Assembly (NCBI GenBank): GCA_945947575.1
Contig: CAMEYM010000010.1
Coordinates: 1-64,000 of the forward strand
DNA from: Rhizobium sp. Q54
GTDB taxonomy: Bacteria; Pseudomonadota; Alphaproteobacteria; UBA2966; CAIVPW01
Length of the DNA: 64,000 bases
Reading direction: 5' to 3'
The notes below the pieces were generated by a model, which was not told the origin of the DNA, did no database searches, and saw nothing but the letters and a program-made list of their open reading frames with translations. Positions 32,900 to 36,381 of this stretch are shown in pieces (positions within the stretch are counted from its first letter, which is position 1; every line of letters begins with the position of its first letter). Made by a program: the position numbers and the translations under genes.

Positions 32900-33133
32900 T
32901 CAAAGCGGCGGGGACGCGGTTTCCTCATCGGGCGCGGCGAACTCCAAGAGATCGCCGGGTTGGCAGTGCAGCGCGGCGCAGATCGCTTCCAGTGTCGAGA
33001 AGCGCACGGCGCGCGCCTTGCCGGTTTTCAGGATCGACAGGTTGGCGAGCGTGATGCCGATGCGGTCGGCGAGCTCGGTCAGGGTCATGCGGCGCTCGTG
33101 CAGCATGTCGTCGAGTTTCACGAGGATGGGCAC
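32900..33133 (-). CDS. XRE-type HTH regulator (YozG-like)
   Basis: A 77-residue single-domain Cro/C1-type helix-turn-helix protein: MTLTELADRIGITLANLSILKTGKARAVR is the DNA-binding region, followed by the typical LEAICAALHCQPGDLLEF. Small regulators of this kind are commonly paired with a DUF2975 membrane protein, which is exactly the upstream gene here (3-nt gap). The pair is preceded by repeated TATCGATAAT sequences that are probably its own operator. Confidence 0.9.
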   Translation of the reverse strand: MPILVKLDDMLHERRMTLTELADRIGITLANLSILKTGKARAVRFSTLEAICAALHCQPGDLLEFAAPDEETASPPL

Positions 33134-33136
33134 GGA

Positions 33137-33658
33137 TCAGACCGTCCCTTCGAGGTCGGCGCGCATGCGGGCGCCGTGCTCGAACACGCGCGCCAGCACG
33201 AACAGCAGCAACACCGCGAGCCAGGGGTTGAAGGAAAAGCTCCACTCGATGTCGAGCGGGCGCTCGTCAGTCGAAGCACCGGTGATGACGGCGCCGACGA
33301 GCAGGTGCAGCATTTCGAGACCGAGCAGCGTCCAGGCGATGGTCTGCAGGCGGACGGCGTTGGCGAGGACGAACGCATCGCCGGCGCGCACCGTATCGAC
33401 GATGGCGAGCAGGCGCGTAAGGAAGATGTGGTTGAGCGGAATGCTGGCGATGCCGATGGCGGCGATGCCGCGCATGCCCATCACCAGCGGCATCGTTGCC
33501 GGCGACAGCGGCTCGCCGACCGCACCGGCCATCAACGTCTCCTCGAAGAGGAAGCTGGCGGCCAGCAGCGCGGCGATGCCGGCGCCGACCACGAGATTGA
33601 GGACGAGGAGCACCCGCAGGAGGGTGCGCGAGGCGGCCAGGGCGGGCGTGGAGGACAT
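33137..33658 (-). CDS. DUF2975 membrane protein
   Basis: A 173-residue inner-membrane protein with four hydrophobic segments: LLRVLLVLNLVVGAGIAALL, a second around GMRGIAAIGIASIP, a third around TIAWTLLGLEMLHLLVGAVI and a fourth around WLAVLLLFVLARVF. The order and wording match DUF2975/YoaS proteins. It is first in a two-gene operon with the XRE regulator, which suggests it modulates or is regulated by that protein; the mechanism is not established. Confidence 0.82.
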   Translation of the reverse strand: MSSTPALAASRTLLRVLLVLNLVVGAGIAALLAASFLFEETLMAGAVGEPLSPATMPLVMGMRGIAAIGIASIPLNHIFLTRLLAIVDTVRAGDAFVLANAVRLQTIAWTLLGLEMLHLLVGAVITGASTDERPLDIEWSFSFNPWLAVLLLFVLARVFEHGARMRADLEGTV

Positions 33659-34109: not shown

Positions 34110-35243
34110 CTAGGCGACGAGGTTGGTTGTCGCGCGGAGGCGACGGGCGAGGATGGCGGCGAGGTTGAGGTTGATGCGGGCGAGGACCGTGGGATCGAGG
34201 CCCTTCACGCCGGCGAAGCGGGACGGCTGGATGCGCAGCATGTTGCCGTTGGAGAGGGCGACGACGTCGGCGGTGCGGCCTTCGCCGAGGAGCATGCTCA
34301 TCTCGCCGATGAGGTCGCCGGGGCCGAGGGTGGTGACGATGGTCTTGCGGCCCATGGGGCTGGTCTTCACCACCTGCAGGAAGCCTGTGCGCACCAGGTA
34401 GACGTCGCGCCCGCGCGCCGAGGCGTCGATGACCTGGTCGCCGACGTGGAAGTCGACCTCGGGCACCCCATCGAGGAAGGCATCGATGTCCGGGTGCGAG
34501 ATGCCGCGGAACAACTCCATGTCGAGGAGCGAGGGCGAGGAATCGACCATGTCGTGGGCGTTGAGCGGGCCGTTGTCGATCCCGGCCGGGGCCTCGACAG
34601 GGCCTTCGGTCAGCTCGCGGAAGAAGCGCGCTGCCGCGGGCACATGGCTTTGGCCGTGGTCGATGAGCGCCGGCAGCAGGCGCGAGCGGATCGATGCGAG
34701 GTGCTCGAGGTCGTGCGCGACGAGGCACATGGGCACGCCGATGCCGCCGCGCGGATACCGGAAATGCGGCGCGTGGCAGCGAAAGCCCAAGCGCTCGTAG
34801 AGGGCGACGGATTCCGGGTCGCAGTCGATGAAGACGAACCAGGGCGCCGGGTATTTGGAGAGTTCATCCACGACGGCGCCGACCAGCGAGGCGAACGCGG
34901 GCGTGGTCCGGTACTTGGACAGGACTGCGGCTTTGCGCACCTGGAAGACGTTCTTCTTGGAGCACGCGTCGGCGACCGGGGTCAGGTTGAGGGTCTGGAC
35001 GCGCTCGGCGTCGAAGTCCGCCCCGCCCCACCAGTCGATCGCAACGGTGCCGATCGGCTCCGTGCCGTCGTAGGCGACCAGGATGGTGGCCTTGGCGTCG
35101 GCCTCCTCGACGATGCCCTTGGCGGCCGTCACGCCCATGATGTCGTAGCCGAGGTCGCCGACCAGGACCGTGTAGCGCAGCCGATAGGCATCCCGGCGCG
35201 CCTCGTCCGTGCGCACGGTCTCGATCCGGAAGTCCGCCCCCAT
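34110..35243 (-). CDS. GNAT-type N-acyltransferase fused to a cyclic-nucleotide-binding domain
   Basis: A 377-residue fusion. Residues 1-215 look like the FeeM/acyl-homoserine-lactone-synthase branch of the GNAT fold: [17 protein letters not shown] at the start, then [39 protein letters not shown] and [17 protein letters not shown]. Residues 240-350 are a cNMP-binding domain with the phosphate-binding cassette [21 protein letters not shown] (Gly313, Glu314, Arg323, Thr324 conserved). No DNA-binding domain follows, so it is not a Crp-type regulator. The likely role is an acyltransferase controlled by cAMP or cGMP (inference). ATG 35243 has a very strong GGGGAGAGGGG site; the frame extends upstream to 35519 but that part lies opposite obgE. 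Confidence 0.78.
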
Positions 35244-35349
35244 AGCCCCTCTCCCCCTGCCAAACTCTAGCATCTTGGCTCGAGAGCAACAGTGGGCCGA
35301 TGGGCGCGCGCGGGTTGTCTTTCGGCCCGTTTGGCCGCATGTAACGCCC

Positions 35350-36381
35350 ATGAAGTTCCTCGACCAGGCCAAGGTGGCCATCCGCGCCGGCAAGGGCGGG
35401 CCCGGCGCCATGAGCTTCCGGCGCGAGAAGAACCTCGAGTTCGGCGGCCCCCACGGCGGCAACGGCGGGCGCGGCGGCGACGTTTGGGCCGAGGCCGCGG
35501 CGGGGCTCAATACCCTCATCGACTTCCGCTACCAGCAGCACTTCAAGGCGCAAAACGGGGCGCCCGGCGGGGCTTATCAGCGCTCCGGCGCCAACGGCGC
35601 CGACCTCGTCCTGCTGGTGCCGCCCGGCACCGAGATCATCGACGACGCCACCGAAGAGGTGCTGGCCGAGCTGAACGAGCCGGGCCAACGCATGCTGCTG
35701 GCCAAGGGCGGCGACGGCGGCATGGGCAATGCGCATTACAAGTCATCCACCAATCGGGCGCCGCGCAAGACGACGCCCGGCTATCCGGGCGAGGACCGCG
35801 AACTGCGCCTGCGCCTGAAGCTGATCGCGGACGCGGGGCTGGTGGGGCTGCCGAACGCGGGCAAGTCGACGTTCTTGTCGGCGGTGTCGCGCGCCAAGCC
35901 GAAGGTCGCCGACTATCCGTTCACAACGCTGCATCCGCATCTCGGCGTGGTGCGCGCGGGCGAACGCGAGTTCGTGCTCGCCGATCTGCCCGGACTGATC
36001 GAAGGCGCGCACGAAGGCGTCGGCCTCGGCGACCAATTCCTGGGGCACGTCGAGCGCTGCCGCGTGCTGCTGCACCTGGTCGATGCGACCCAGGACAACG
36101 TCGCCCTGGCGTGGCGCACGGTGCGCACGGAGCTCGAAGCGTACGGCGCTGGGCTGTCGGAGAAGCCCGAGGTCTTGGCGCTGTCGAAGTGCGACGCGCT
36201 GACCGAGGACGAGATCAAGAAGAAGCGCATGGCACTGAAGCGAGCCGCCAAGAACGACGTGCTGACCATCTCCGCGGTGAGCGGCGACGGCATGCCGGCC
36301 GCGCTGCACCGGATATTCGCCATCGTGCGGCCCGATCCGAAGGCGGCGGCCGGCGAAGCCGACCAGGCCTGGACGCCGTGA
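35350..36381 (+). CDS. obgE: Obg/CgtA GTPase
   Basis: A 343-residue GTPase that acts in ribosome assembly and stress control. The N-terminal Gly-rich Obg domain ([19 protein letters not shown] ... [14 protein letters not shown]) is complete. The G domain has G1 [11 protein letters not shown]3 DLPGLIEGA, and G4 SKCD in place of the usual NKxD ([10 protein letters not shown]). The unstructured Obg C-terminal tail is short. ATG 35350 gives the standard start. Its stop overlaps the proB start by 4 nt (GTGA). Confidence 0.96.

Follow-up and report, generated by a model that had tools for sequence, protein, structure and literature searches.

Organization of the locus

The DNA analysed here, a 64-kb window comprising positions 1–64,000 of the forward strand of contig CAMEYM010000010.1 of Rhizobium sp. 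Q54 (GCA_945947575.1), carries on its minus strand a gene for a protein of 377 aa in which a GNAT domain is followed by a linker and a cyclic-nucleotide-binding (CNB) domain (34110..35243). The reading frame runs from ATG to stop without internal stop codons, and orthologues that are 90% and 68% identical begin at the same start and have the same full length. Because both length and gene order match in these orthologues, an assembly or frameshift artefact is ruled out. The fusion of an N-terminal acyltransferase-type domain to a C-terminal CNB domain in a single gene, proposed in the first-pass annotation, is thus borne out by Pfam, by fold comparison and by the uninterrupted frame.

The gene lies, as had been noted, between a regulatory pair and obgE: an HTH_26 regulator and a DUF2975 membrane protein adjoin it on one side (32900–33658), and a divergent obgE, named from its sequence, on the other. 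In three species the gene of the window clade is found between rpmA and the obgE-proB-proA-nadD genes. The neighbouring HTH gene is conserved in L020; it has no match in L021, the most distant of the three species, although the GNAT–CNB gene is matched there. Consequently, a functional link with the HTH_26/DUF2975 pair is unlikely. Neither a sigma-70-like nor a CRP-like site was found in the 107-bp divergent intergenic region between the gene and obgE (35244..35350). Autoregulation through a CRP-like site was also considered and rejected: the window contains five weak matches, below the number expected by chance, and none is near the gene.

The gene is kept in two sister species with overall dN/dS values of 0.21 and 0.26 and per-domain values of 0.20–0.25 (0.21–0.24 for the GNAT domain), figures that have to be read in the light of other open frames overlapping the gene on the opposite strand. 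Since the overall values are low and similar in each domain, both domains are maintained, and purifying selection acts on the GNAT as well as on the CNB part.

The cyclic-nucleotide-binding domain

The full-length AlphaFold model (pLDDT 81.7) comprises the GNAT domain (residues 1–190; 34674..35243, minus strand), a helical linker (residues 191–240; 34524..34673, minus strand), with low confidence at residues 214–235, and a CRP-type beta roll (residues 241–344; 34212..34523, minus strand). Pfam cNMP_binding (PF00027) matches residues 264–344 with an E-value of 2.6e-16 and 59.8 bits, against a cut-off of 27.5. The top Foldseek matches of this half are bacterial cAMP receptor proteins, many of them solved with cAMP bound (E 7.6e-11). 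Within the phosphate-binding cassette (residues 307–327; 34263..34325, minus strand), the four residues highlighted in the first-pass annotation, Gly313, Glu314, Arg323 and Thr324, are indeed kept and align with G71, E72, R82 and S83 of Escherichia coli CRP. The C-helix (residues 351–376; 34116..34193, minus strand), delimited from the model and the alignment, contains the motif ARRLRATTN and places R, T and T at the positions of CRP R123, T127 and S128, in an alignment that opens a four-residue gap in this helix. These CRP residues contact cAMP, and the C-helix of CRP serves dimerization. All seven contact positions tested are either kept or conservatively replaced in the window protein, which supports an intact CRP-type pocket; by these positions, the sole criterion used, the ligand space foreseen for a cyclic nucleotide would be present.

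The same positions are conserved in the wider family: the cassette Gly in 30/30 members, Glu, Arg and Thr or Ser each in 29/30, the equivalent of CRP R123 in all 30, and the Thr/Ser positions of the C-helix in most. All three findings, the match to the CNB model, the fold match and the conservation across families, far exceed chance. The conserved pocket positions also bear on the idea of an active enzyme without cyclic-nucleotide gating, whose CNB domain would only dimerize the protein or bind another ligand. The CRP/FNR relatives do include sensors of signals other than cyclic nucleotides, and one receiver-fused relative (L083, see below) retains its CNB domain despite a degenerate pocket. 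Such relaxed use of the domain would fit poorly, however, with the near-invariant cassette and the largely retained C-helix positions, or with the presence of every pocket residue in three orthologues of the window gene, down to 68% identity. We therefore consider it decidedly unlikely.

A helix-turn-helix, reported absent in the first-pass annotation, was likewise not encountered here. The window protein has no match to an HTH family in Pfam, and the model ends one residue past the C-helix; in CRP this helix leads into the HTH, but here the chain stops.

The host genome (2.49 Mb, 96% complete) contains about nine matches to class III cyclases, some of them partial, none of which is on the contig of the window, and 22 CNB domains. 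For a genome of this size, this looks like a dense cyclic-nucleotide network.

The GNAT domain

Modelled alone, residues 1–190 give a pLDDT of 89.7, and a GNAT fold is present in the region (residues 1–215) to which it had been ascribed. Its placement in the branch of FeeM and the acyl-homoserine lactone (AHL) synthases is backed by both Pfam and fold comparison. The Pfam FeeM model (PF21926) matches residues 48–177 (5.9e-6); the score is 26.6 bits, just short of the cut-off of 27, and 28.2 bits in the genome-level search; it exceeds the cut-off in the orthologue from L021 (30.9 bits) and in L083 (32.4 bits). Acetyltransf_10 also matches this half (0.0015). Over 30 family members, FeeM is matched in 16 and Acetyltransf_5 in 15; the LuxI-type autoinducer-synthase model is matched in none at E 0.01. 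The NCBIfam model for the ornithine N-acyltransferase OlsB does not appear among the matches of the window protein at E ≤ 1.

In the Foldseek comparison with solved structures, the top query TM-scores among the matches listed for the GNAT model belong to FeeM (2g0b, chains A, C and D; 0.73–0.74), followed by the AHL synthases TofI (0.70) and BjaI (0.70–0.71). Generic GNATs such as SACOL1063 reach similar or better E-values with lower query TM-scores. A GNAT-only profile run on 386 genomes of the class gave more than 180 bits exclusively for loci of the CNB-fused family. The next tier scored 49–60 bits, and the three loci sampled from it all score as OlsB, making OlsB-type proteins the nearest stand-alone relatives by sequence in the class. 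Acyl-ACP is the donor for FeeM, OlsB and most AHL synthases. The acetyl-CoA loop RxxGx[G/A] is absent from the window protein, in which the region of R112 reads RTTPAF, and a loose pattern finds it in only 2/30 family members. The FeeM fold, the OlsB-like relatives and the missing loop favour the acyl-ACP-using branch.

These data can be set against a reading of the protein as a reversed-order analogue of the mycobacterial lysine acetyltransferase Pat, that is, a cAMP-controlled enzyme modifying lysines of metabolic enzymes with acetyl-CoA as donor. Pat contains the same pair of domain types and is known to be activated by cAMP (PMC5861322), and the lowest-E fold match of the GNAT model is the CoA-bound generic GNAT SACOL1063. 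Yet the NCBIfam model for Pat (NF058543) gives only 23.4 of 460 bits on the window protein, all of them from the CNB part. The loop expected for acetyl-CoA is missing, and it is FeeM that provides the best full-length fold, which leaves this reading doubtful.

Homology is not enough to assign catalysis to the window protein, because the OlsB-type glutamate and two arginine positions are changed. Where the OlsB motif E-[LM]-[SG]-R has its Glu, the family mostly has a hydrophobic residue, and the window protein has Gln101. The Arg following this Glu is replaced by Lys104, and Ala68 stands at a position where 25/30 family members have Arg. An N-acyl amino acid or a signal molecule as product, as suggested, is not established: the window protein lacks the glutamate that OlsB conserves, and no biosynthetic or substrate gene beside the GNAT–CNB gene points to a product. 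The altered positions and the lack of linked substrate genes would also suit a GNAT domain that is non-catalytic or sensory and binds acyl-ACP or another metabolite, the protein then being a cyclic-nucleotide-dependent regulator or scaffold. However, purifying selection acts on this domain, and the surroundings of the YERLGFR motif are conserved throughout the family. Moreover, catalytic residues of GNATs differ widely from one family to another. We regard a non-catalytic role as unlikely.

Distribution and evolution of the family

At a threshold of 1e-30, 26 of the 386 genomes of the class contain a match. One of these (G116) is aligned over the CNB domain only, leaving 25 with the GNAT–CNB order, from at least ten families of the class. 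Relatives with the same domain order occur in genomes of the same genus, of the same family and of more distant groups. No further GNAT–CNB members were found in 397 genomes drawn at the phylum level, nor any plasmid relatives covering 80% of the query. The host genome itself encodes a second full-length GNAT–CNB protein, 30% identical to the first. The window clade forms a separate and fully supported group (100/100), whose placement involves long branches. These sequence comparisons make the window gene a diverged paralogue within a conserved family rather than a singleton fusion, and this family, restricted to one class in our sample, is apparently undescribed.

About a dozen family members are located directly downstream of nrdJ, which codes for the B12-dependent ribonucleotide reductase, most of them with aspS nearby; the identities of nrdJ and aspS were checked by Pfam at L064. 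The nrdJ-linked loci (L064, L066, L067, L069, L070, L072, L075, L077, L078, L079 and L080) share a conserved block that in most cases includes aspS, mlaD-like and NDUFA12-like genes. All family-bearing genomes of the class sample contain nrdJ, compared with 246/386 overall. This co-occurrence is equally well explained by shared descent, and the link was not retained as a sign of function.

Several other features of the paralogous loci were recorded. Stand-alone CNB proteins of approximately 160–180 aa adjoin GNAT–CNB paralogues in three genomes (L059:10246-10725, L060:8091-8627 and L062:9411-9908). The L059/L002 copy is flanked upstream by an ABC1-type kinase gene and downstream by a gene for an MFS transporter. 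The gene at L082:722-1974 (G311), one of the loci above 180 bits in the GNAT-only profile run, is apparently in two frames, and may represent a frameshift or a pseudogene.

The sister of the window gene, and its nearest relative outside the genus, is the 563-aa protein L083:6085-7773 (G274). It carries an intact N-terminal receiver domain (5.8e-25), then a FeeM-type GNAT domain scoring over the cut-off and a degenerate CNB domain, whose cassette has decayed to VGDDATLLESDQPSIPS. The receiver placed in front, together with the decayed pocket, suggests a GNAT output domain whose controlling signal can be exchanged. Judged from this one sequence, it looks as if phosphorylation took over from the cyclic nucleotide.

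Proposed function

We propose, with a probability of about 0.5, that the window protein is a cAMP- or cGMP-gated acyltransferase of the FeeM/OlsB branch, soluble and probably dimeric. One of the class III cyclases of the genome would supply cAMP or cGMP, which would bind to the CRP-type domain at the C terminus. From there, the C-helix and the linker may pass the change on to the N-terminal GNAT domain, and the latter would acylate an amine acceptor with an acyl thioester as donor. Both the gating and the acyl transfer appear likely. Acyl-ACP or a longer acyl-CoA would be a more plausible donor than acetyl-CoA. As a first guess, the acceptor might be a small amine or an amino-lipid, since these are the substrates of the nearest relatives, FeeM and OlsB.

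A broader proposal, which we put forward tentatively, is that the proteins make up an undescribed family of N-acyltransferases gated by cAMP or cGMP. The messenger would act directly on the synthesis of an N-acylated lipid or signal molecule, bypassing transcription, and in one lineage a response-regulator receiver domain would have replaced the cyclic-nucleotide switch. If this is true, cyclic-nucleotide signalling would be tied to the making of acyl lipids or signals with no transcription step in between, and a second messenger may switch acylation directly on and off.

Comparison with known systems

The individual components of the window protein have well-known counterparts. FeeM is the closest full-length fold for its GNAT half, at 17–18% identity; the FeeM chain in the PDB consists of the GNAT domain only (about 170–190 residues seen), unlike the CNB-fused protein described here. 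OlsB similarly has no CNB domain and, unlike the GNAT–CNB family, keeps the motif E-[LM]-[SG]-R. The CNB half shares with CRP the phosphate cassette and the C-helix contacts, but in CRP this domain precedes a DNA-binding domain, whereas here it is located behind a GNAT domain and no HTH follows.

The combination of a second-messenger-binding domain and a GNAT domain in one protein is also known from PixB of Myxococcus xanthus, a PilZ–GNAT protein with c-di-GMP as the messenger (PMC8316039); the window protein differs from it in having a cyclic-nucleotide-binding domain of the CRP type instead of PilZ domains. Our literature search, which covered a minority of subscription journals, returned no paper naming FeeM together with a cyclic-nucleotide-binding domain and no description of such a fusion. 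Direct links from cyclic nucleotides to enzymes are few in bacteria, and Pat is the sole case involving a GNAT that we found. Mycobacterial Pat (Rv0998/MSMEG_5458), a cAMP-activated lysine acetyltransferase, unites the two domains in one chain, as the window protein does, with the cyclic-nucleotide-binding domain first (PMC5861322), in agreement with the opposite order noted in the first-pass annotation. GNATs regulated by cyclic nucleotides are therefore not new in themselves; what is new here is the reversed domain order and a GNAT domain from a branch different from that of Pat.
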